Of a DNA stretch of 24,541 bases, positions 100 through 24,369 are shown in pieces. The position numbers and the translations under genes are program-made. Source of the DNA: a virus. The stretch's first letter is position 1; the number at the start of each line of letters is the position of its first letter. The notes below the pieces were generated by a model, which had not been told where the DNA came from, did no database searches, and worked only from the letters and a program-made list of their open reading frames with translations. Where the stretch lies: the IMG/VR virus record IMGVR_UViG_3300037264_002341, positions 1 through 24,541 of that record. One strand, written 5' to 3'.

Positions 100-150
100 G
101 CGGAAGCAGGCCCAAAGTTGGGTGTCACAAACTTCCTGAAGGAGCAGGGC

Positions 151-3117
151 ATGAACATCTACGCGGACGGCACAACCCGCCTGTACGAGTTAAGTGAGAC
201 CACTGCCGGTCGCAAGGGAGTGCCATCCAGTTTCATTGCTCGTGCTCTCAAAGAAACCCCCATGGCCGTATACCTCTATGGTCCTGGGGTAGACTGTTGG
301 ATCCCCAAATACGCCATTAAGCTCGCGGACCCGAATCGTGTTCAAGAGGCAATCGAGGTTCCTGATGAACACCCTATGTTCGAGACAACCGCCGCCTCAA
401 GCAATGGACCACAACGCTACGCCAAAATCTCTCGCATTGGGCCCGCTCGACAGAGGATGATCAAAATCGTGTTCCCATATGATTGGAGGGATATTACCAA
501 CGTCAAGAAGATAAAGGGAGCACGATATCAGCATGAGGTAGACGAGAAGTTCTTTGTCTGTCCCATCTCCGTGGACGCGGTGACAGCTCTGGACCAACTC
601 CAGTTTGCTCTCTCTCCAAAGCTCTTGAAGCTCCTAAATGAATCTCAAACAAATGTAGATCAAATAGAAGCAGTGACCGTGCCGGGCCTACAGGGTAAAC
701 TGTATCCCTTCCAAGAGAAGGGAGTAGCATATACAGAGTTCAAAAACGGAATGGCTCTCCTCGCCGATGATATGGGCTTAGGCAAGACGGTTCAAGCTCT
801 CAGTTTTCTACAACTTCATCCGGAGCTACGACCCGCCGTAATTGTAGTTCCGGCCTCCCTCAAATTGAATTGGGCGAGGGAGGCCCGGAGATGGATGGAG
901 CGCCCCCGTGCCCGAGTTTTGTCAGGATCCAAAGCAAATCCCCGCTGGCTGAGAGGGGAAATTCTCATAATCAACTATGACATACTCGCAAACAAATATG
1001 AAAAGTACATCGACAAGAAAGATGGCAAAAAGAAGGAACGTGAGCAACCGTTCACCGGCTGGGTCGATTACATAAAAAATCTGAATCCAAAAGTGGTGAT
1101 ATTAGACGAATGCTTCCCTGCCGGCACTCTTATCTCCACCCCAAGGGGGGAAGTGCCCATAGAACAATTAAAAGAGGGGGACTCAATATACAACGCACTG
1201 GGGGTGGGAAACATCACGAAGAAGGGGGAAAGATTTACCCATCACTTAGTTCGCATAACCATGAATAATGGAAAACAAATTACTTGTACTCCAAACCATC
1301 CCTTTTTCACTACGGAGGGATGGTATCCAGCCGAAAACCTTGCAGAAAAATTTCTCTTGACTCCCGCAACGATTTTTAATATACTGGAACGCGACGATAT
1401 ATTAAGAGGAGATTCTGACCATGAAACTGCGTCGCGGGAACCGAATCTGCCAATGGTGCAAAAAACCATTCAAAGTCACCCCCAACACATCTCCCAAACA
1501 AAGATTCTGCGGGAAGTCCTGCTCAGCGAAGTGGAGAATGTCACAACCTTCAATAAGGAAGGCCGTATACACGAAGGAACGATCTCAGAAAATGTCCGTC
1601 GGTCTCCAGAAAGCCCACGCCAGAAATCCACAATGGGCAAAAGACAACTCCGAACGCATGACGAAGAACAACCCCACCACGAACTCCGAGGTGGTAAAAA
1701 AGATAAAGGAACATTGGAAGAAATTCGGGCATCCCTTACAAAAACAACAGCTCAAAGGCGGGAACGGCAGACCCCTCCCCGCTCCCCAAAGAATTTTACT
1801 GGCAGCTTTAGGATCAAAATGGAAGGCGGAATTTGTAATCCCCACTCGGATGCCTCGATCTTCTTGCTACCCGACTCATTACAAAGTAGATTTAGGACTA
1901 CCCCAAAGCAAGCTTTGGATCGAGTTAGACGGATGGATTCACGAACTTCCAGAAATAGAAGCACAAGACCGAAAGAAGGAACGATTCCTGCGAGAACGCG
2001 GGTGGAAAGGGTTGAGATTTTTGAATACAAGAGTTCTGCAAGACTTGGAGGGCGTCTTGTCTACAATCTCGAAGTCTCTGGACATCCCTCCTATTACGCT
2101 GAAGGAGTCTTAGTACACAACTGTCAATTCATCAAAAACAGCGCGGCTCATAGAACCAAAGCGGTCAAGAAGTTAGTCCAGGGGGTGCCTCATGTTCTTG
2201 GACTTACGGGGACAGCAATTGAGAACCGGCCTGCGGAGATTTACAACATTATCCGGATAGTCTGCCCCGCTCTGTTCCCAGACCGTTTCTCATTTCTGAG
2301 GCGATACTGTGCAGGACGGCATACTGGTTGGGGTTGGGACTTTTCTGGAGCCTCCAACACCAAAGAGCTTCATCAAAAGCTAATAAACTCTTGCATGCTA
2401 CGACGTAGAAAAGCGGACGTGCTGCCAGAATTACCAGCTAAAATCCGCTCCGTAGTGCCGATTGAACTGGATCTTACGGCAGCAAAACTCTACCGGAAGG
2501 CGGAGAGCGACTTTATTGGATGGGTGCGCGAGACGAGGGGGCATAAGGCGGCGAAAAGGGCATCAAACGCGGAGGCCCTAACTCGAATCGAGGGATTAAA
2601 GCAACTTGCTGTTAAAGCAAAGATGACTCAAATGGTCCGATGGATCAAAGACTTCCTAGAAGTGAAGGACAAACTCGTCATCTTTGCGGAACATAAGGAA
2701 GTAGTAAATCAGCTGATGGCGGACCTGACCTCCTACAACCCTGTAGTAGTCGCCGGAGGAGTCTCAAAAGAGAATCGGCAACGGGCAGTAGACCGCTTCC
2801 AGACCGAAGACAACGTGCGAGTGATCCTCGGCTCCAAATCTTTAGCGATGGGCTGGACCTTAACCGCCGCTGCGGACACCTGCTTCACGGAGCTTTGGTG
2901 GACTCCCGGACTTCATGTACAAGCCGAGGACCGGGTCCACCGAATAGGCCAGGAAGCAGACTCAGTCAATGCTTACTATTTGATCGCAACAGAAACCATC
3001 GAGGAGGAGATCGCAGCGTTGTTAGACAAGAAGCGGAAGGTGTTAGATCAAGTACTGGATGGGATAGAGACGGATGATTCCAGTCTGTTAACCGAGCTGA
3101 TGAATGCTTACTCCTGA
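151..3117 (+). CDS. SNF2-family DNA helicase/ATPase interrupted by an intein
   Basis: This is a superfamily 2 ATPase of the SNF2 type. The N-terminal segment around 463-600 resembles the HARP-like region of SMARCAL1-type proteins. Motif I (DDMGLGKT) is at 766-789. Motif II is split: LDE ends at 1110 and CQFIKN resumes at 2122 after a 337-residue intein. The C-terminal helicase lobe carries LGLTGTAIENRP near 2200 and the motif VI form QAEDRVHRIGQ near 2920-2950. The unspliced chain is 988 residues and the spliced protein is 651. The ATG at 151 is preferred over an in-frame TTG at 118 because AAGGAG sits seven bases upstream of it. SNF2 proteins of phages are thought to remodel forks or displace proteins from DNA. 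A sigma-like gene follows directly. Confidence 0.93.
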   Translation: MNIYADGTTRLYELSETTAGRKGVPSSFIARALKETPMAVYLYGPGVDCWIPKYAIKLADPNRVQEAIEVPDEHPMFETTAASSNGPQRYAKISRIGPARQRMIKIVFPYDWRDITNVKKIKGARYQHEVDEKFFVCPISVDAVTALDQLQFALSPKLLKLLNESQTNVDQIEAVTVPGLQGKLYPFQEKGVAYTEFKNGMALLADDMGLGKTVQALSFLQLHPELRPAVIVVPASLKLNWAREARRWMERPRARVLSGSKANPRWLRGEILIINYDILANKYEKYIDKKDGKKKEREQPFTGWVDYIKNLNPKVVILDECFPAGTLISTPRGEVPIEQLKEGDSIYNALGVGNITKKGERFTHHLVRITMNNGKQITCTPNHPFFTTEGWYPAENLAEKFLLTPATIFNILERDDILRGDSDHETASREPNLPMVQKTIQSHPQHISQTKILREVLLSEVENVTTFNKEGRIHEGTISENVRRSPESPRQKSTMGKRQLRTHDEEQPHHELRGGKKDKGTLEEIRASLTKTTAQRRERQTPPRSPKNFTGSFRIKMEGGICNPHSDASIFLLPDSLQSRFRTTPKQALDRVRRMDSRTSRNRSTRPKEGTIPARTRVERVEIFEYKSSARLGGRLVYNLEVSGHPSYYAEGVLVHNCQFIKNSAAHRTKAVKKLVQGVPHVLGLTGTAIENRPAEIYNIIRIVCPALFPDRFSFLRRYCAGRHTGWGWDFSGASNTKELHQKLINSCMLRRRKADVLPELPAKIRSVVPIELDLTAAKLYRKAESDFIGWVRETRGHKAAKRASNAEALTRIEGLKQLAVKAKMTQMVRWIKDFLEVKDKLVIFAEHKEVVNQLMADLTSYNPVVVAGGVSKENRQRAVDRFQTEDNVRVILGSKSLAMGWTLTAAADTCFTELWWTPGLHVQAEDRVHRIGQEADSVNAYYLIATETIEEEIAALLDKKRKVLDQVLDGIETDDSSLLTELMNAYS
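1111..2121 (+). mobile_element. Contiguous intein inserted in the SNF2 motif II (Walker B)
   Basis: The intein begins with Cys at 1111 (CFPAGTLISTPRGEVPIEQL, block A) and has block B TCTPNHPFF with the TxxH signature. It ends in block F (VYNLEVSGHPSYYAEGVL) and block G (VHN), with Cys+1 at 2122. The flanking exteins rejoin as LDE-CQFIKN, the SNF2 DExx box, so splicing restores an active-site motif. It is 337 residues long. Residues 1-103 are the splicing N part. The stretch from about 1421 to 2000 in this frame has no recognisable domain because a homing endonuclease is encoded there in the +1 frame. The last 40 residues are the splicing C part. All residues needed for standard cis-splicing (C1, TxxH, HN, C+1) are present. 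Confidence 0.95.
1421..2113 (+). CDS. Homing endonuclease nested out of frame inside the SNF2 intein (Vsr/DUF559-like)
   Basis: This 230-residue protein is read in the +1 frame relative to the surrounding intein. AGAGGAG at about 1405-1411 lies nine bases before its ATG. The N-terminus has a Cys4 zinc knuckle (CQWC and CGKSC). The middle is Lys/Asn-rich like the DNA-contact regions of phage homing endonucleases. The C-terminal domain resembles Vsr/DUF559 nucleases: YKVDLGL, then LWIELDGWIHE, an Asp-Arg helix and RGWKGLRFLN. Members of this EDxHD group cut DNA to spread their host intein. The helix that often carries a catalytic Glu reads PQRILL here, so activity is uncertain. The stop codon lies eight bases before the intein end, so its last ~38 codons overlap intein block F. 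Confidence 0.85.
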   Translation: MKLRRGNRICQWCKKPFKVTPNTSPKQRFCGKSCSAKWRMSQPSIRKAVYTKERSQKMSVGLQKAHARNPQWAKDNSERMTKNNPTTNSEVVKKIKEHWKKFGHPLQKQQLKGGNGRPLPAPQRILLAALGSKWKAEFVIPTRMPRSSCYPTHYKVDLGLPQSKLWIELDGWIHELPEIEAQDRKKERFLRERGWKGLRFLNTRVLQDLEGVLSTISKSLDIPPITLKES

Positions 3118-10145: not shown

Positions 10146-11459
10146 ATGCCGAAGGAGGTCCTGAAACTTAACGGCGTTAGGTTGCTTAGCTTGGAACCGC
10201 GCGACATAGTCACCGCCATCCTCCATACATTCCCGGACATTCATTACTGGAGCCCGGATGGGCTCAGGCAGCTCTGGAAGGCCGCATTCGATGTAGCTTT
10301 GGAGTTTGTAAAAACCCAAATTAAGAATGAAAGGGGGTCGAAACGGAGTGCATTAACTCGCTTCCGTAAAAGAGCGGAATGGAAGTTGTGGAGCGTGCGC
10401 CGGAGTGGGTCAAGCATGCTTACTCGGGTCTACAACGAGATGCTTGCTAATGAAGGTCACGGGTTACTGCGGGGCTTCGGCTTCGCCAACAAATTGGGAC
10501 AACCGATTTTGGGGAATGCTGAAGTCCAACCGTGCATACTGTTTCAACCGTATCAGGACTCAGAAACAATCTCTAACCAAGAGGAGGAAGTCATGTCAGA
10601 GCTGGAGTTCACGAAGAAGGAACTGAAGGACGCCCTTGAGGACGTCAACGAGACCCTGGACCTCGGCAAGACCTCCATGTCCACCAAGGGGGGTGAAGAG
10701 GAGCTGCTGGAGCGCCTGACCAAGGCCGCTCTCCAGAAGGATGGCGAGGGCAACTTCTTCATCACCGACAAGGACGAGGTCAACAAGAAGACCCGCAAGA
10801 TCATCGACGCCATCCGCGAGAACGCGGAGGAGGACGAGGAGAAGCCCAAGAAGAAGGCCAAAGCCAAGGCCGAGGCCGAGGACGAGGAGGAGGAGAAGCC
10901 CAAGAAGAAGGCCAAGGACGAGGACGACGAGGAGAAGCCCAAGGCCAAGACCAAGGTCAAGGACGAGGATGAGGAGAAGCCCAAGAAGAAGGCCAAGGAC
11001 GAGGACGAGGACGAGGACGGCGAGAAGTCCCTGGCCGACCAGGTCGCGGAGTGCTCCAAGCTGAAGCTGCTCAAGCAGATGGTCGAGGACAACAGTGAGT
11101 TCAAGAAGCTCCGCAAAAAGCTGGACGACTACAAGTTGCTGGAGGGCTTCCGCGAGCTGAAGAACGACATGTACGAGGCCCTGGGCGTCGAGCCCCCCAA
11201 GAAGAAGGCCCCCAAGAAGAAGGAGGAGACCGGCCCGCGCTACACCCGGCTCCACGCCGTCGCCGATGCCCTGAAGGAGGGCAAGACCACGAACCGGGAG
11301 AAGCTGGTCCAGCGGTCTTCTGATCTGTTCGCAGAGCATGGTGGCCACGACAACCTGCGGGAGCAGAAGGCCGACTTCGAGCGGGCCTCCAAGCTCCTGA
11401 CCGCACTCGGCCTGGCCAAGGACAACGGCAAGGAGTTCGAGTACACTCCTGAGGGCTAG
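10146..11459 (+). CDS. Long form of the charged protein: unknown N-terminal domain in frame with the Lys/Glu-rich protein
   Basis: One frame of 437 codons runs from ATG 10146 (GGGAG seven bases upstream) to TAG 11459. The first 149 codons encode a soluble unknown domain (VRLLSLEPRDIVTAILHTF, then a Trp- and Arg-containing helical region) with ordinary mixed codon use. From codon 150, exactly at an internal ATG with AGGAGG five bases upstream (10593), codon use switches almost completely to G- or C-ending codons. This looks like two genes joined in frame by loss of a stop, or one gene with two starts. Whether the full-length fusion is made cannot be decided from sequence. Confidence 0.55.
   Translation: MPKEVLKLNGVRLLSLEPRDIVTAILHTFPDIHYWSPDGLRQLWKAAFDVALEFVKTQIKNERGSKRSALTRFRKRAEWKLWSVRRSGSSMLTRVYNEMLANEGHGLLRGFGFANKLGQPILGNAEVQPCILFQPYQDSETISNQEEEVMSELEFTKKELKDALEDVNETLDLGKTSMSTKGGEEELLERLTKAALQKDGEGNFFITDKDEVNKKTRKIIDAIRENAEEDEEKPKKKAKAKAEAEDEEEEKPKKKAKDEDDEEKPKAKTKVKDEDEEKPKKKAKDEDEDEDGEKSLADQVAECSKLKLLKQMVEDNSEFKKLRKKLDDYKLLEGFRELKNDMYEALGVEPPKKKAPKKKEETGPRYTRLHAVADALKEGKTTNREKLVQRSSDLFAEHGGHDNLREQKADFERASKLLTALGLAKDNGKEFEYTPEG
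10593..11459 (+). CDS. Highly charged Lys/Glu-rich protein, codon-optimised (short form)
   Basis: 288 residues from an internal ATG with a very strong ribosome binding site (GAGGAGGAAG). The N-terminal 80 residues are mixed alpha/beta-like (SELEFTKKELKDALEDVNE). Residues about 82-150 are a low-complexity alternation of acidic and basic blocks with four EEKPKxKxK copies. After a helical region and a second basic patch (PPKKKAPKKK), the C-terminal 70 residues (RYTRLHAVADALKEGKTTN to the end) look like a folded helical domain. Such charge-patterned proteins include histone-H1-like DNA-binding proteins, but no family is recognised. Extreme G/C-ending codon use, its own candidate promoter and the strong hairpin afterwards suggest high expression. 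Confidence 0.75.
   Translation: MSELEFTKKELKDALEDVNETLDLGKTSMSTKGGEEELLERLTKAALQKDGEGNFFITDKDEVNKKTRKIIDAIRENAEEDEEKPKKKAKAKAEAEDEEEEKPKKKAKDEDDEEKPKAKTKVKDEDEEKPKKKAKDEDEDEDGEKSLADQVAECSKLKLLKQMVEDNSEFKKLRKKLDDYKLLEGFRELKNDMYEALGVEPPKKKAPKKKEETGPRYTRLHAVADALKEGKTTNREKLVQRSSDLFAEHGGHDNLREQKADFERASKLLTALGLAKDNGKEFEYTPEG
10836..10997 (+). repeat. Four 27-base repeats encoding EEKP(K/A)KKAK-type units
   Basis: Copies at 10836-10862, 10890-10916, 10929-10955 and 10971-10997 each encode Glu-Glu-Lys-Pro-Lys followed by four mostly Lys/Ala residues. They are separated by acidic spacers of 27, 12 and 15 bases, all multiples of three. The third copy is divergent (KAKTK). Unequal spacing and near-identical DNA suggest recent slippage-driven expansion. 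Confidence 0.8.
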
Positions 11460-15457: not shown

Positions 15458-15994
15458 ATGGACTATTTTGAGCTAAGACGCCTCGTCAGCCGGATCGTTC
15501 CCCGTATGACCCAACTTCAAGTGTCCAAACGGAAGGTGGACGCGGTGAAGGAGAAGGGGCGCAAGAAGAACTATCATCAATTCAACCTGCGCGATGGGGA
15601 ATGGCGGAAGCAGGAACGGCTTCTGAATACCGAGGCCATCAACTCCTTCCTGGAAATCTCGGTGAGAGCGGCAGCCTGCCCGATGCCCTTCAATATGGAC
15701 ATTTGGGACGGGCTTCTCTGTGTTGCGGAAGGGCAACGGGTCCAGACCTCTGATGGAAAAGTTCCTATCGAGAAAGTCAAGGCTTGTGATGTTGTCTGGA
15801 CTTTCAACGAGGAGGAACAGCGCCGCCAACTGGCTCGGGTAACTCAAATCTCTAACACCATTCGAAAGAACCTGGTTGAAGTTGAGACCGAAGAGGGGAC
15901 CATCCGGTTAACTGAAGACCACCGAGTGCTTACCCAACGGGGTTGGATTCCTGCGGGGCAACTTACGGAAGAAGACCTGATGTATGTCTGGTAA
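15458..15994 (+). CDS. Radical SAM enzyme N-extein fused to split intein N half
   Basis: 178 residues. Residues 1-87 are the N-extein of a second radical SAM protein, ending WDGLL. Cys88 (nt 15719) begins an intein: block A CVAEGQRVQTSDGKVPIEKV and block B RLTEDHRVLT with the TxxH signature, then a stop at 15992 soon after GWIPAGQL. The intein N half is 91 residues. The C-extein is encoded 0.8 kb downstream in the same frame (16796-18076), where IntC ends HN followed by Cys. This half lacks the Fe-S cysteines and cannot be an active enzyme alone. The full 473-residue protein needs trans-splicing. The stop overlaps the endonuclease gene by 11 bases. Confidence 0.93.
   Translation: MDYFELRRLVSRIVPRMTQLQVSKRKVDAVKEKGRKKNYHQFNLRDGEWRKQERLLNTEAINSFLEISVRAAACPMPFNMDIWDGLLCVAEGQRVQTSDGKVPIEKVKACDVVWTFNEEEQRRQLARVTQISNTIRKNLVEVETEEGTIRLTEDHRVLTQRGWIPAGQLTEEDLMYVW
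15719..15991 (+). mobile_element. Split intein, N-terminal half (IntN)
   Basis: 91 residues from Cys1 to the residue before the stop codon, with blocks A and B. Together with the 40-residue IntC this gives a 131-residue mini-intein, the size of known natural split inteins. Confidence 0.92.
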
Positions 15995-16814
15995 GCTCTG
16001 TAAATGCGGTTGTGGAATTCCCATCCCTTTCGGCTCAACCTGGGCAAAGGGACACAACCGTCGGGGGGAGAAGCACTCGAAGGCCGCTCTCCAGAAGATG
16101 CGAGAAGCCCGACTGGGAAACACCCCTTGGAATAAAGGGAAGCCCAGAACTGAAGAAGAGAAGGAAGCGATGCGGCGGGGCATCTCTACAGAAGAGCGGG
16201 AGAGGCGTTCCAAAAGGACAACGAGAGGTTGGAAGGAAGGTCGGTACGATTTCATGAATGGCAAGACTAACCCGGCCTGCCGTCCGGAGGTCGCTACCAA
16301 AATAGGGGAAGCCAACAAAGGCCGGATTATCTCGAAAGCTACCAGACACAAGTTGAGTAAATCCCGCCTGGGGAAACCCGGCCAGGTCGTCTCGGAGAGG
16401 GTAAAGAAGCTCCACTCCAAACGGATGAAGAAGGACAATCCCATGTATCACAAGGACGTTCTTCAAAATCATCCGGTCCTCCGAGGGGGAAGGTACTACA
16501 TTTCCATCGGAGAGAACAAGGTGGCCGGGCTTCTGACCGAGATGGGGATAGCCTTTGAGAGGCAAAAGCTCCTCCGCAAACAGGTCGGCTACTACGTTGC
16601 GGACTTCTTCTTAACCGGCCACGACGCAATAATCGAGTTTGACGGGCACTATTCTCATGTAGAGAACGCGGAGAAGGACCGTCAGCGAGACTGCTATCTC
16701 TTGAGAAGATACGGCTACCGAACTCTGCGCTTGGTGTCCATGGATCTGAACAATAGGAACAGAGAAGACCTTATCCAGAAGATACGGGAGTTTCTATGGA
16801 ACTCAAACCAGTAA
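15984..16814 (+). CDS. Free-standing homing endonuclease between the split intein halves
   Basis: 276 residues. The N-terminus has a Cys motif (CKCGCG) and several NUMOD3-like segments (GHNRRGEKHSKAALQKMREA, LGNTPWNKGKPRTEEEK, GRIISKATRHKLSKSRLG), which are DNA-binding repeats of phage homing endonucleases. The C-terminal nuclease is Vsr/DUF559-like (EDxHD group): GENKVAGLLTEMGI, YYVADFFL, AIIEFDGHYSH, then KDRQRDCYLLRRYGYRTLRL. The Glu, Asp and His-Asp residues expected for the group are all present. It should cut an intein-free allele of the radical SAM gene. Its start overlaps IntN by 11 bases and its end overlaps IntC by 19, so all three cistrons are coupled. It is in the +1 frame relative to the halves. 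Confidence 0.88.
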   Translation: MSGKLCKCGCGIPIPFGSTWAKGHNRRGEKHSKAALQKMREARLGNTPWNKGKPRTEEEKEAMRRGISTEERERRSKRTTRGWKEGRYDFMNGKTNPACRPEVATKIGEANKGRIISKATRHKLSKSRLGKPGQVVSERVKKLHSKRMKKDNPMYHKDVLQNHPVLRGGRYYISIGENKVAGLLTEMGIAFERQKLLRKQVGYYVADFFLTGHDAIIEFDGHYSHVENAEKDRQRDCYLLRRYGYRTLRLVSMDLNNRNREDLIQKIREFLWNSNQ

Positions 16815-16915
16815 AGGTGAAACGGGTCCGCAAGATTCCAGGGGAGTATCGAGTGTACGATATCACCGTGGACCGCAACTCCAACTTCTTCGCGGAGGGG
16901 CACCTAGTTCACAAC
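16796..16915 (+). mobile_element. Split intein, C-terminal half (IntC)
   Basis: 40 residues with blocks F and G, ending in His-Asn just before Cys+1 at 16916. It provides its own start codon and ribosome binding site. Confidence 0.92.
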
Positions 16916-18076
16916 TGTCCCTTTGCTTGTATCTATTGCTACGCGAATTCCTTTAGGGCCAGTCTTTACACGGCCTTCTTCGACAACTCGAAGACCATGG
17001 GATTCCGTCATTGCAATCCCACCTACTACAAGAAGGAGATGGACAAGATGTTGAAATTCCGCTCTCTCCCATTCTCGGAGAAGCGGACGCTAACAGGCAT
17101 TAACAAAGCCTTCGCCCTTGATATTCCCGTCCGCATGGGTATCCGCTTCGAGGACTTCCTGCGAAATGAGCAGAGGGCCGGAGTCAGTCTGGAGATGTTG
17201 AACTACCTAGCTGATATTAGTTATCCGATCATGATCAACACGAAGTCCTACATTCCAGGACAGGACGCCTACGTGAAAGCTCTCTCTCGAAACGAGGCCG
17301 GAGCGGCTATTCACGTCACTGTCATCTCCTGCAATGAGGAGATACTACGAAAGTTGGAGCCTGGGGCACCATCCTACAAACGGCGGCTGGAGACGATGAG
17401 GAATCTCTGCTCTGCAGGGGTGCGGGTAGTCGCTCGGATCGAGCCCTATCTGTTCCTTCTCACTGATGATCCGGACGACCTGAAGCAATATATGGAAGAG
17501 GTGTATGGAACCGGGGTAAGGCATATCACATTCGACACCTACTCTTACACGGCCCAAAATCCAGGGATTCGTCAGGCCTTTATCAATGTGGGATATGACT
17601 ATGACCGTCTTTTCCTCGCCGGATGCGATAGCCAACCACTTGGAAGCCTTCTTTTGGCTAAATTTATGGACCTGTTTAGAGCTAGGGGATTTTTCTGCTC
17701 TACATTCGATATGGGAAATGTTCCTAGTAACGACCAAGCCATCTGCTGCGAAGTAGGAGACTGGTTCAAGGGGGGCTTCAACTACGGCTGCACCGTTATG
17801 GCGGCTCGGTTCATCCGAGACCAGTCCAAGAAGCTCGGTCCCAATATGGGAGTCTGCTGGTCGGACTTTGTATATTGGGTCGTTAAAAGGGGAGGCTTCC
17901 TCACCCCCGAACTACAACGGATGGTCCACGAACTCTGGAACCTCGGGGGAAATGTTGCTTACAGCCCTCGTTGGGCTCAGGGGCTAGTTCCTTGCGGAAT
18001 GGACGACGACGGCCTCATCTGGATCCATGAACCGAGCCGCGATCATCGGCAAACTCTCTTGGAGGAATTGATATGA
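16796..18076 (+). CDS. Split intein C half fused to radical SAM C-extein
   Basis: 426 residues, with GGGAG five bases before the ATG. Residues 1-40 are IntC: block F YRVYDITVDRNSNFFAEG and block G HLVHN. Residue 41 is both the +1 Cys for splicing and the first Cys of the radical SAM cluster CPFACIYCYA (Cys41, 45, 48). The rest is SPL-like: VRMGIRFEDFL, a YPIMINTKSYIPG strand, HVTVISCNEEILRKLEP with GAPSYKRRLETM, and VVARIEPYLFLL. A late CC motif (AICCEVGDWF) may hold a further cluster. Without splicing it would carry the cluster but lack 87 N-terminal residues. It shares ATGA with the next gene. Confidence 0.93.
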   Translation: MELKPVKVKRVRKIPGEYRVYDITVDRNSNFFAEGHLVHNCPFACIYCYANSFRASLYTAFFDNSKTMGFRHCNPTYYKKEMDKMLKFRSLPFSEKRTLTGINKAFALDIPVRMGIRFEDFLRNEQRAGVSLEMLNYLADISYPIMINTKSYIPGQDAYVKALSRNEAGAAIHVTVISCNEEILRKLEPGAPSYKRRLETMRNLCSAGVRVVARIEPYLFLLTDDPDDLKQYMEEVYGTGVRHITFDTYSYTAQNPGIRQAFINVGYDYDRLFLAGCDSQPLGSLLLAKFMDLFRARGFFCSTFDMGNVPSNDQAICCEVGDWFKGGFNYGCTVMAARFIRDQSKKLGPNMGVCWSDFVYWVVKRGGFLTPELQRMVHELWNLGGNVAYSPRWAQGLVPCGMDDDGLIWIHEPSRDHRQTLLEELI

Positions 18077-21581: not shown

Positions 21582-21692
21582 ATGGACGCAGCAAGTTTCT
21601 TGGCGGGGTTAATTCTCGGTTTGTGCCCCGGTGCCGTAATTGGTGTCCTTCTTTTCCTGTATTTGAGGGAGTACATAAATAAGTGCAAATAG
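21582..21692 (+). CDS. Tiny single-span membrane peptide
   Basis: 36 residues with AAGGA six bases upstream of the ATG. One hydrophobic helix (FLAGLILGLCPGAVIGVLLF) is followed by a basic tail (LREYINKCK). It overlaps the next gene by 10 bases. Too short to assign; position between the clamp and polymerase genes gives no functional clue. Confidence 0.5.
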   Translation: MDAASFLAGLILGLCPGAVIGVLLFLYLREYINKCK

Positions 21693-22954
21693 GCTTATTC
21701 AGCAAACAAGAGACCGCTTCCAAATTTCGTCCTGATGGGAAGGGTCACACCTGCGCCAAATGCGGTCTCTACAAGTACGTCATCAGTCCCCGAATGAAGC
21801 CCTACGGAGACTTCAAGAAAGGAATCCTCAACATAGGGGAGGCTCCGGGGGAACATGAGGACCGACGGGGCAAACAATGGCAAGGGAAAACGGGTCGAGC
21901 TTTGAAGGCGATGTACGACAGTCTTGGTATTAACCTGTTCAAGGATTGTATCAATATTAATGCCATCAATTGCCGACCCACTAAAGATTCAGGCAACCGA
22001 GAGCCGGAAGACGAGGAGATCACATCCTGCCGGAGGCGCGTGTTCGAGGTTATAGACGAGTACAAACCAAAACTTATCATGCTCTTTGGGGGGTGTGCCG
22101 TCAAAAGTGTCATCGGCTCTCGGTGGACTAAGGATTTGGGAGGCATCTCAAGATGGCGAGGCTGGACCATCCCTGATCGGGAACTGAATGCTTGGATCTG
22201 TCCCGTCTTCCATCCGAGCTATGTAGAGCGCGGAGAAGCTCAGATTGAGGTCATATGGGAAAAGGATTTGCGCCGCGCTTTCCGAAAGATAGGCAAACCC
22301 ATTCCCGAATTCATAGATGAGCGGACACAGATCGAGATACTTACGAATCCCAAAGACATTCGGCGGATGCTCATAGATGTAATGCAAGGCACCCCCTTCC
22401 ATCCCTACTTTGTGGCCTTCGACTATGAGACAACGGGAATGAAGCCACAACGGAAGGGACACAAGATCATCTGCGCCTCAGTATGTGCAGAACCGGGCAA
22501 GGCTTACGCCTTTATGATGATGGAGGAAATCTGGAGAATTTGGCGAGTATTCCTCCGGAGTGACATAGGCAAGATAGCACAGAACCTAAAACACGAAGAC
22601 AATTGGTCAAAGGTCCTCCAGAAAACGGACGTCAAGAATTGGGCCTGGGATCCAATGCTGGCTGCTCGATTACTCGCCGGAAGGCCGGGTTGCGCTTCAT
22701 TGAAATTCCAAGCCTATGTTCGATACGGTCTGCCCAACTGGCAATATGATTGGGTTGAGGACTTCCTAGAAATGGAGGACAACAAGGATGGTAATTCATT
22801 CAACCGGATTGAGGAACTGGTAAAAAGCGAGAGGGGGCAAAGAATGCTCTTGGAATATTGCGGGATTGACGGTCTGAAGACTCTGCCCCTCTCCTTAGAA
22901 CAAATGCAAGAAATGGGATTGGATCCCGAGAAGATTGCCCGAGGGATTCTATAA
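21683..22954 (+). CDS. Fusion of uracil-DNA glycosylase (family 4/5-like) and 3'-5' exonuclease
   Basis: 423 residues from GTG 21683. Residues 1-200 form a UDG with GEAPG at 52-56, four cysteines in the family 4 Fe-S pattern (24, 27, 97 in NCRP, 116) and HPS at 177-179. Residues 240-420 form a DnaQ/Pol I-type exonuclease: Exo I FDYETTG (Asp247, Glu249), Exo II AQNLKHED (Asp306) and Exo III YCGID (Tyr-x3-Asp). The polymerase domain is the next gene, so the proofreading part of a family A polymerase has been separated from it and fused to a uracil-removing enzyme. The N-terminus MQIGLF contains a QxxLF clamp-binding-like peptide. The start lies inside the membrane peptide gene. Confidence 0.88.
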   Translation: MQIGLFSKQETASKFRPDGKGHTCAKCGLYKYVISPRMKPYGDFKKGILNIGEAPGEHEDRRGKQWQGKTGRALKAMYDSLGINLFKDCININAINCRPTKDSGNREPEDEEITSCRRRVFEVIDEYKPKLIMLFGGCAVKSVIGSRWTKDLGGISRWRGWTIPDRELNAWICPVFHPSYVERGEAQIEVIWEKDLRRAFRKIGKPIPEFIDERTQIEILTNPKDIRRMLIDVMQGTPFHPYFVAFDYETTGMKPQRKGHKIICASVCAEPGKAYAFMMMEEIWRIWRVFLRSDIGKIAQNLKHEDNWSKVLQKTDVKNWAWDPMLAARLLAGRPGCASLKFQAYVRYGLPNWQYDWVEDFLEMEDNKDGNSFNRIEELVKSERGQRMLLEYCGIDGLKTLPLSLEQMQEMGLDPEKIARGIL

Positions 22955-22956
22955 TT

Positions 22957-24369
22957 GTGAGCTACGCCACCGCATACGACGCCTATCAACTTTTTCACAA
23001 AGGTGCTCAAGCTCTCGCTAGAGCAGAGCGGGCCGGAATCCGTCTAGATGTGGAGAGTTGCGAGAAGCAGTCTCGACATTTGAAGCGCCGGATCGGCAAA
23101 CTGAAGGAGGATTTCGAGGAGACCAAATTTTATCGGCGCTGGAGTCACATATTTGACTCAAAGACCAAGATCAATAGTGATGATCAATTACGTCATATGC
23201 TCTATAACGTAATGAAGATGCCTCCTCCTACGACCACCGATTCTGGGAAAGGATCCACCAATGAGGAAAGCCTACTTCAACTCACAACCGACGTTCCTGA
23301 GTTGGAGACGCTTCTACAGATAAGAAAGCTACAGAAGGGGCGGACTACATACCTGCAAGCCTTCCTGCGAGAGCAGGTAGACGGCTTTATTCATCCTTCA
23401 ATTAACCTTCATATACCTTGGACTTACCGATCCTCAATGGACCGTCCTAATCTACAAAACGTGTCGAAGCGGGACAAGGAGATGAAAAAGATTGTCCGAA
23501 GTGTCCTGTTCCCGCGCTTTGGACATCAATTAGGCGAGTTCGACTTCAGTGGAATTGAGGTGGCAATAGGGGCATGCTATCACAAAGATCCAACTATGTT
23601 AAAGTATATCAAAGACAAGACCACGGATATGCACCGGGATATGGCCATCCAATGTTACCTGCTAGATTATTTCGACAAGGACATCCCCGTTCATAAAAAT
23701 GTCCTCCGCCAGGGAGGGAAAAATGGTTTCGTGTTCCCTCAATTCTATGGAGATTACTATGGGAATTGCGCTAGAAACCTTGCCAAGTGGGTTAAGATGC
23801 ACCTCACAGGGAAATGGAAGAAAGGACAAGGGATCGAACTCTCCGAGGGCTACCATATATCCGATCATCTGATATCGAAAGGAATCAAAAGCTTCGACGA
23901 CTTTGAACAGCACATCAAAGAGGTAGAAGCAGATTTCTGGGGGCGGCGGTTCAAAGTCTACGCGGAATGGAAGGAAGAAACCTGGGAAGAATATCAAAGA
24001 AAGGGATACATAGACTTCTACACCGGCTTTCGCTGTTCTGGAGTATTTGACAAACGACAAATTCTGAATGCGCCCATCCAAGGGACCGCCTTCCATTGTC
24101 TCCTCTGGAGCTTTGTCCGGACGGACGAGACTATGCTAAAGGAAGAGTGGGAAACGAGACTTATCAACCAAGTTCATGATTCTATGATGCCCGATATTCA
24201 ACCAAAGGAACTTGAGCACGTAGCGAAAACAATACACCGGATAGGGACGGTGGAGCTTCCGAAGGCTTGGGATTGGATCATCGTTCCTCTTGAGATCGAA
24301 GCGGACGTTGGAGCTGTAGATGCTTCTTGGTACGATCTGGAACCTTATCAGTTCACAAAGGCGGCATAA
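22957..24369 (+). CDS. polA: Family A DNA polymerase, polymerase domain only
   Basis: 470 residues from GTG 22957, with GAGGGA upstream. It lacks an exonuclease domain, which is in the gene before it. The palm/fingers motifs are visible: WTYRSSMDRPNLQNV (the R-x-SS-x-PNLQN signature), motif A EFDFSGIE (Asp196), motif B RQGGKNGFVFPQFYG (Arg251, Lys255) and motif C VHDSMMPD (His407, Asp408). Motif C has Ser where most Pol I enzymes have Glu, and motif B has one more residue than usual between Lys and Tyr-Gly. Both catalytic Asp are present. A long charged segment at about 275-360 separates motifs B and C. It is likely the phage replicative polymerase. Confidence 0.92.
   Translation: MSYATAYDAYQLFHKGAQALARAERAGIRLDVESCEKQSRHLKRRIGKLKEDFEETKFYRRWSHIFDSKTKINSDDQLRHMLYNVMKMPPPTTTDSGKGSTNEESLLQLTTDVPELETLLQIRKLQKGRTTYLQAFLREQVDGFIHPSINLHIPWTYRSSMDRPNLQNVSKRDKEMKKIVRSVLFPRFGHQLGEFDFSGIEVAIGACYHKDPTMLKYIKDKTTDMHRDMAIQCYLLDYFDKDIPVHKNVLRQGGKNGFVFPQFYGDYYGNCARNLAKWVKMHLTGKWKKGQGIELSEGYHISDHLISKGIKSFDDFEQHIKEVEADFWGRRFKVYAEWKEETWEEYQRKGYIDFYTGFRCSGVFDKRQILNAPIQGTAFHCLLWSFVRTDETMLKEEWETRLINQVHDSMMPDIQPKELEHVAKTIHRIGTVELPKAWDWIIVPLEIEADVGAVDASWYDLEPYQFTKAA

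Follow-up and report, generated by a model that had tools for sequence, protein, structure and literature searches.

We analysed a stretch of viral DNA of 24,541 nt, referred to below as the window (IMG/VR virus record IMGVR_UViG_3300037264_002341, positions 1 to 24,541). In it, one uninterrupted open reading frame (ORF) on the + strand, at 118-3117, encodes an SNF2-type helicase and holds an intein at 1111-2121. This element is very probably a mobile, cis-splicing intein inserted in helicase motif II (DE^C), with a homing endonuclease gene (HEG) that forms a separate gene, fully nested in the +1 frame. Nesting of the HEG at +1 in the intein is a family trait, found in about 100 related phage and bacterial sequences, and two proteins constrain the same bases only at about 1993-2034 and 2056-2076. 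The initial annotation, made from the sequence alone, had seen a dual-coding segment of about 112 bases at 2002-2113. The sharing of DNA is real, but the overlap comprises the entire 693-base HEG, which lies wholly within the intein ORF.

The insert and its nested nuclease

Inteins typically start with a Cys, carry a block A/B with a TxxH-type motif and end with HN followed by Cys, Ser or Thr. The insert in the window runs from Cys 1111 to Asn 2119-2121, Cys 2122 being the first residue of the C-extein, and shows CTPNHPFF and VHN/C at the corresponding places. Cys1, His63 and Asn337 were invariant across 73 aligned inteins. The domain was matched by PF14890 (6.8e-10), TIGR01445 (1.4e-8) and TIGR01443 (6.6e-6), and its insertion point falls in motif II, where splicing would join ...VVILDE to CQFIKN. 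In an AlphaFold model made from 70 rows, the splicing parts were confident (predicted local distance difference test, pLDDT, 81-97), and the model resembled Hint folds (2lwy, Z 19.7, root-mean-square deviation 1.5, 126 aligned, with VIA-align; gp41-1, Z 19.0). These motifs and the predicted Hint fold identify the insert as an intein, which presumably splices.

The HEG encodes a product of 230 residues with a Cys4 zinc finger (C10, C13, C30, C34), NNP and GGNG motifs and a Vsr/DUF559 core with D157, E168, D170, H174 and D183. PF04480 (DUF559) matched residues 152-220 (1.4e-11) and was recognised in all 88 aligned HEGs, in which D157, D170, H174 and D183 were invariant and E168, C30 and C34 were conserved in at least 90%. 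C10 and C13 were invariant in an alignment of 6 HEGs and fell outside the 90% columns of the 88-row set, many rows of which start inside the gene. The AlphaFold model of the nuclease (85-row alignment) was ordered, with a pLDDT of 91.4 and a predicted template modelling score (pTM) of 0.66; its last strand (residues 196-201) corresponds to bases 2006-2023 and its last helix (209-219) to 2045-2077, with coil afterwards. By sequence profile (hmmsearch) the nuclease matched 3hrl (4.1e-14) and 3r3p (0.0037). With Foldseek, the catalytic domain of I-Bth0305I (3r3p) ranked first, 3hrl third and Vsr (1vsr) fifth, with probabilities of 0.97, 0.98 and 0.72 and E-values of 0.075-0.33. The family profile, the acidic/His core and the Vsr/PD-(D/E)XK fold make this product a DUF559, Vsr-like (EDxHD) nuclease.

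Some of these data count against the main reading. The whole intein model had a mean pLDDT of 67.3 and a pTM of 0.53, and the Foldseek E-values of the nuclease were weak (best 0.075, none below 0.001), with a mitoribosomal protein at rank 2.

The presence of recognisable family motifs in both products, claimed by the initial annotation, is borne out by the domain matches to intein and nuclease given above. Its coordinates were also exact, VERVEIFEY starting at 2002 in the frame of ORF 118-3117 and RGWKGLRFLN at 1997, and the endonuclease stop (TAG, 2111-2113) indeed precedes the splice junction by eight bases (2114-2121).

The +1 phase is constant among related loci

A tblastn search of 50,697 phage records found a relative in 40. 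All eight named records that were opened had a HEG at +1 inside one long coding sequence, which alone was annotated, the HEG being unannotated. Alignment-based scans kept the best 80 of 138 and the best 80 of 140 confirmed loci in viral contigs, as well as 18 loci in species genomes; adding the named phages and the window brought the total to 185 sequences with 116 distinct HEGs, among which near-copies remain. The HEG-based scan favours no phase, and the N- and C-terminal parts of the inteins were found with iteratively built profiles. Both halves were detected for 103 of the 116 distinct HEGs (window included). In 99, a single ORF held both parts and the HEG lay at +1; offsets 0 and +2 were never seen. 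The other HEGs comprised 4 at split or broken loci, 2 cut by contig ends and 11 without a detected intein; 8 of these 11, all short matches, were left out of the HEG tree. For the class with a nested DUF559 HEG, in-frame fusion and random phase could be rejected (0/99 loci).

A scan from the intein side, which shares contigs with the HEG-based set, was made with a C-terminal set of 10, the pooled intein alignment being too poorly conserved for scanning. It kept the best 80 of 378 loci, of which 70 were distinct: 66 had the HEG at +1 (as a remnant in 3), 1 was a mini-intein and 3 were in-frame inteins of another type, which sit in other genes and were judged by eye to be LAGLIDADG inteins. The HEG of the window, used alone as a query in the viral contigs, found no relative, whereas the alignment-based scans did.

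The intein followed a DE dipeptide in 95 of the 99 loci, the identity of the host gene as a helicase being checked for some of them. The nested layout was present in Corynebacterium phage phi673 and in 8 of the 18 species-genome loci. The genomes or bins of these eight were labelled Verrucomicrobiota, Pseudomonadota, Thermodesulfobacteriota, Campylobacterota, Myxococcota, Bacteroidota and Bacillota, and the nested loci in species genomes or bins are presumably prophages or phage contigs. In 3 of the 99 loci (L070, L076 and L180), the HEG stop lay beyond the called splice point. In L070 and L180 the HEG frame continues past the junction into the C-extein, and the nuclease tail would overlap helicase codons there; in L076 the contig ends at the junction, making the junction call unreliable, and this locus was left out of the conservation and rate tests (n = 98).

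Stop avoidance in the intein frame across the HEG

An open intein frame through the HEG core requires that no HEG codon ending in T stands before a codon starting with AA, AG or GA. When codons were shuffled synonymously within the HEGs, 794 stops were expected over the 99 loci, and a locus stayed open with a mean chance of 0.005; with the codon usage of sequence outside the overlap, 1166 stops and a chance of 0.008 were obtained. The 99 loci being stop-free by definition, the informative figure is their share of all loci in which both halves were found (99/103). The HEG core of the window had no intein-frame stop as compared with 6.4 expected, and none of 300 shuffles was open. Two contig-edge loci that had not been selected for openness (L029 and L183) also had no stop, versus 14.0 and 11.3 expected, while the third frame, taken as a control, contained 1366 stops versus 1285 expected. 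The possibility that the frame is open by chance was rejected on the basis of the shuffled openness. At one further locus (L138, 4114-4116) a single TAG, where 12.6 stops were expected in a free frame, interrupts an otherwise open intein frame and may be a fresh break or a recoded stop.

Three loci with a split intein (L054, L065 and L075) contained 15, 35 and 25 stops, versus 17, 35 and 24 expected, indicating that the constraint on openness is gone there. Their HEG and intein halves keep the same +1 phase, and the C half, the start codon of which is a guess, still overlaps the 3' end of the HEG. In an unrooted HEG tree of 109 rows these loci formed one clade (100/99) among the nested loci; from this position, the split form looks derived in their lineage, with loss of openness.

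This bears on the proposal that the helicase intein of the window is itself split, as in a fractured gene, and its HEG free-standing, the open frame being incidental. The HEG class and phase are indeed the same in these three split loci, and a second intein of the window is split with its halves in the same phase. Yet one ORF spans both halves in the window and in 98 other loci, at the low shuffled chance given above for each, and the three split loci, with stops at the shuffled level, form a single clade among nested ones. We consider this proposal extremely improbable.

The second intein, at 15458-18076, lies in a radical SAM gene. Its N half ends at 15994, a HEG with NUMOD3 and DUF559 occupies 15984-16814, and the C half with the radical SAM domain starts at 16796, overlapping the HEG by only 19 bases; there are 9 stops in the frame of the N half. 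As a query, this HEG found one weak relative and none in four phage records, an empty answer that carries little weight.

Two segments are constrained in both frames

Constraint was tested on the family (98 loci) by column conservation and by a leave-relatives-out score compared with synonymous nulls. HEG residues dominated the conserved columns up to about 1990. Beyond this point, Gly, Trp, Arg, Phe and Asn of the HEG were at 100%, and the intein residues Val, Asp/Glu, Val/Ile and Glu were at 82%, 93%, 93% and 71%. Under the HEG-synonymous null, the mean z in the HEG core was 0.2-0.5 for the intein frame and 0.05-1.0 for the third frame. In 1993-2034, the intein frame had a mean z of 2.0 given the HEG (third-frame control, 0.7; 98 loci), and the HEG frame had a z of 4.85 given the intein. 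In 2035-2055 (90 loci), the HEG was constrained (z 2.5, third frame 1.5) and the intein only weakly so (z 1.2). In 2056-2076 (68 loci), z was 2.69 for the intein and 1.98 for the HEG, with a third-frame control at 0.9, and in 2077-2112 (28 loci) it was 3.3 for the intein and 0.98 for the HEG, versus 0.78 for the third frame. The same pattern was obtained with a 50% identity cut-off. The third-frame control under the intein-synonymous null was discarded for 1993-2034, as it itself reached a z of 4.0 because the HEG constraint leaks into it; the HEG-synonymous null provides the control that counts.

Further evidence came from the rates of change between close pairs, given here for intein positions 1, 2 and 3, intein first positions being HEG third positions. 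These rates were about 0.2, 0.12 and 0.47 at the codon positions of the N- and C-exteins; 0.112, 0.082 and 0.212 in the intein N part without overlap; 0.286, 0.122 and 0.094 in the HEG core; 0.164, 0.043 and 0.054 in 1993-2034; 0.171, 0.086 and 0.15 in 2035-2055; 0.029, 0.021 and 0.079 in 2056-2076, the lowest of the regions compared (0.043 per site); and 0.05, 0.033 and 0.273 in 2077-2121. The HEG third-position rate therefore falls from its core value to 0.164 and 0.029 in the two segments, and the intein third-position rate from its N-part value to 0.054 and 0.079, which means that silent change is suppressed in both frames at 1993-2034 and 2056-2076 and in the intein frame alone at 2077-2121. 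The initial annotation had placed two-frame constraint over the whole of 2002-2113, had named suppressed synonymous change in both frames as a check of it, and had taken a normal synonymous rate in one frame as a sign that a single product is under selection. It was right for about half of this length, within the two segments just named. It did not hold for 2077-2113, where the rate at intein third positions is normal (0.273), so that by the same rule this last third carries one constrained product.

At 2077 the weighted share of HEGs remaining open is 0.52, and by 2107 it has fallen to 0.21, with HEG stops scattered over this interval. The HEG tail at 2077-2113 is a passenger, not conserved as nuclease, and the folded end of the nuclease (residue 219, base 2077) coincides with the end of the dual constraint. 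In the intein model, strands 296-305 (bases 1996-2025) and 316-322 (bases 2056-2076) both fall within the doubly constrained segments. As the last HEG strand overlaps the first of these, the first segment is predicted to encode a beta strand in both proteins. In the family, these are same-strand nested overlapping genes with both products under selection.

Several points count against constraint in both frames. Some of the intein conservation in 1993-2034 follows of necessity from the HEG residues, and a z of 2.0 is left after allowing for this. Third-frame controls reach a z of 1.0 in the HEG core, so that values near 1 are uninformative. The z-tests ignore phylogeny, the 98 sequences being equivalent to 82.5 (at 70% identity) or 33.6 (at 50%) effective ones. 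The signal of the window alone is weak in 1993-2034 (intein z 1.19, p 0.135; p 0.005 over 2002-2025), and, the nearest HEG among the matches listed being 43% identical to that of the window, the pair rates derive from 20 close, non-independent pairs, none of which involves the window.

Between the splicing parts, the intein model was of low confidence over most of residues 91-290 (ten-residue blocks mostly at pLDDT 40-57, one at 74). Because of this low confidence, of the avoidance of stops in the window and of the intein z of 0.2-0.5 in the HEG core, this middle part of about 200 residues seems to be needed only to stay stop-free while the HEG is read in +1. The features of the locus are listed in Table 1.

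Table 1. Coordinates of the helicase, intein and HEG features in the window, with the evidence for each
Feature	Position	Strand	Evidence
N-extein, SNF2-type helicase N-terminal part up to ...VVILDE (motif II)	118..1110	+	PF00176 2.5e-27; phrog_62 DNA helicase 6.8e-101
Intein N-terminal splicing part (Cys1, blocks A and B)	1111..1356	+	TIGR01445; purpose-built hidden Markov model (HMM) 3.2e-25; pLDDT 95-97, residues 1-80
Intein-frame linker, ~200 residues, low model confidence	1378..1992	+	pLDDT, stop counts, mean intein-frame z
Shine-Dalgarno-like AGGAG, 9 nt 5' of HEG ATG	1407..1411	+	Sequence
Nested HEG, +1 frame relative to intein	1421..2113	+	PF04480, conserved columns, AlphaFold, Foldseek
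First two-frame-constrained segment: HEG strand in RGWKGLRFLN with intein strand in RVERVEIFEY	1993..2034	+	Conservation, nulls, pair rates
Intein C-terminal splicing part (blocks F and G, ...VLVHN)	1996..2121	+	TIGR01443; purpose-built HMM 4.6e-16; pLDDT 81-96
Second two-frame-constrained segment: intein block F VYNLEV with HEG C-terminal helix STISKS	2056..2076	+	Nulls, pair rates
HEG tail with stop codon, a passenger on intein block F/G	2077..2113	+	Nulls; HEG open share
C-extein, helicase from Cys(+1), motif II DE-C rejoined	2122..3117	+	PF00271 2.4e-12

Expression of the HEG

The ATG of the window HEG is preceded by an AGGAG (Table 1). Among the 99 loci, a Shine-Dalgarno match of at least 5 nt was found at the best candidate HEG start in 58, versus 12 of 99 internal controls, and the best starts lay 240-325 nt into the intein in 82. 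This enrichment and the position of the starts make it likely that the HEG is produced by internal initiation in most loci. What tells against internal initiation is that 17 of the 99 loci had no match of at least 4 nt. This finding would suit programmed ribosomal frameshifting off the helicase start, yielding a HEG product fused to the intein N part, as would the constant +1 phase of the 99 loci. Such frameshifting, weighed without a search for a slippery site, is nevertheless very unlikely in view of the match of 5 nt or more before the candidate start in 58 loci and of the placement of the starts 240-325 nt into the intein in 82.

With internal initiation, one mRNA would be read twice. Ribosomes coming from the helicase start would make a single helicase-intein precursor, the self-splicing of which would restore DE-C and an active ATPase, while ribosomes entering at the internal Shine-Dalgarno sequence and ATG (1407-1423) would make the free zinc-finger and Vsr-like nuclease of 230 residues. 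Helicase alleles lacking the intein would be cleaved by the nuclease where the intein inserts, and repair would copy the intein in. Stop avoidance by the intein frame through the HEG core would let both readings pass, and at the 3' end the last strand and helix of the nuclease and the C-terminal strand and block F of the intein are written in common bases.

Mobility and decay

In one group of Vibrio phages with close helicases, the DE^C site was found to be empty (L270), occupied by a mini-intein of about 150 residues (L268 and L269) or occupied by a nested intein (L004). Empty, mini and full alleles at one site are the allele pattern of a homing cycle and point indirectly to homing. Two other Vibrio phage helicases (L267 and L271) carry a mini-intein at DE^C and a further intein near the P-loop (GK).

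A decay census was made on the 140 distinct inteins of the pooled set, chosen for one ORF. A long HEG match was present in 133, and 127 of these were open through the catalytic core. The other inteins comprised 3 with HEG remnants and 4 without a DUF559 HEG (3 of these being LAGLIDADG), and none of the 140 had an intein-frame stop. Telling against an intact HEG throughout, 6 of the 133 long matches carried a stop early in the profile, so that some HEGs may be decaying or start later.

Could the +1 ORF then be a decayed HEG in an ordinary intein, open by chance or through the intein frame alone? The early stops, the three remnants and the unconstrained tail at 2077-2113 go in that direction. 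Decay is, however, hard to reconcile with the conservation of the catalytic residues and of C30 and C34 in the 88 HEGs, with the core rates (0.286 at HEG third positions versus 0.122 and 0.094 at HEG first and second positions), with the 127 of 133 matches open through the core and with the enrichment in Shine-Dalgarno matches, and we regard it as highly improbable. A functional nested HEG remains our preferred reading.

On balance, we lean slightly towards a broader view, according to which these loci form an ancient class of mobile inteins with obligate entanglement. The free HEG would always be at +1, its phase being locked by the bases that its last strand and helix have in common with the last strands of the intein; the overlap would shield the HEG from frameshift loss, because an indel would also kill the helicase; and the class would be ancestral to at least one split-intein lineage. 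Such shielding is compatible with the decay census.

Comparison with known systems

Canonical bifunctional inteins contain an in-frame LAGLIDADG or HNH domain. As in these, a HEG separates blocks B and F of the Hint splicing domain in the window; unlike theirs, this HEG is out of frame, at +1, with its own start, and the intein-frame insert is of low model confidence. In fractured genes, split intein halves reportedly flank a free-standing Vsr-like HEG, the intein and host gene being in two ORFs. Going by this description, the likeness lies in the intein halves flanking a Vsr-like HEG and the difference in the single ORF, 118-3117, that runs through both here, whereas two ORFs with a HEG between them are found in the second intein of the window (15458-18076). 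We take gp41-1 and NrdJ-1 to be members of the fractured-gene split inteins; both match the intein profile or model of the present analysis.

I-Bth0305I belongs to a group I intron, and we know of no intein overlap for it. The nuclease of the window has a similar Vsr-like catalytic fold (PDB 3r3p, at the Foldseek rank and E-values given above), and that structure is named a mobile intron protein in the PDB.

PMC11855218 (2025) describes a ShiLan-type, out-of-frame HNH gene in a phage DNA methylase, with the host gene open across it, and thus also a homing endonuclease gene in a shifted frame of an open host gene. The ShiLan-type gene differs from the present one in being HNH rather than DUF559, in lying in the third frame and in having no ribosome-binding site that was found; its authors found no intein or intron and predict that the insert is retained in the protein (PMC11855218). 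In the window, by comparison with that account, a DUF559 HEG is surrounded by a recognisable intein, bases of its nuclease core also encode the C-terminal splicing motifs of that intein, and the locus is not an HNH nuclease in a non-splicing insert.

PMC11855218 also mentions overlapping reading frames in actinophages, citing Gosselin et al. 2025 (bioRxiv 10.1101/2025.01.02.630785); going by its title, on actinophage inteins of 'Non-Canonical Architecture', the latter may describe out-of-frame HEGs in inteins. The literature searched, which covered neither Gosselin et al. 2025 nor Dassa et al. 2009 (NAR 37:2560, on fractured genes), yielded no account of a DUF559 HEG in the +1 frame of an intein. 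The parts are already known: Hint inteins and Vsr-like HEGs, such HEGs flanked, as reported, by split inteins and, from PMC11855218, an out-of-frame HEG in a phage gene without an intein.

HEGs of inteins are usually sought as in-frame domains or as separate ORFs, and a class in a second frame can escape annotation. The family is also a naturally occurring, deeply aligned example of long dual coding, where one can map which bases serve either protein alone and which serve the two together. A path by which cis-spliced inteins become split ones is suggested by these loci, as is a means for a selfish nuclease gene to evade decay by frameshift.

Other features of the window

Elsewhere in the window, 10146-11459 encodes a protein with a long Lys/Glu-rich low-complexity stretch. 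A DNA polymerase is encoded at 21683-24369 in two adjacent ORFs, with phrog_17 matching 478-827 and 834-1237. Judging by eye, we take the N-terminal stretch of the first polymerase ORF (21683-24369) to be uracil-DNA-glycosylase-like.

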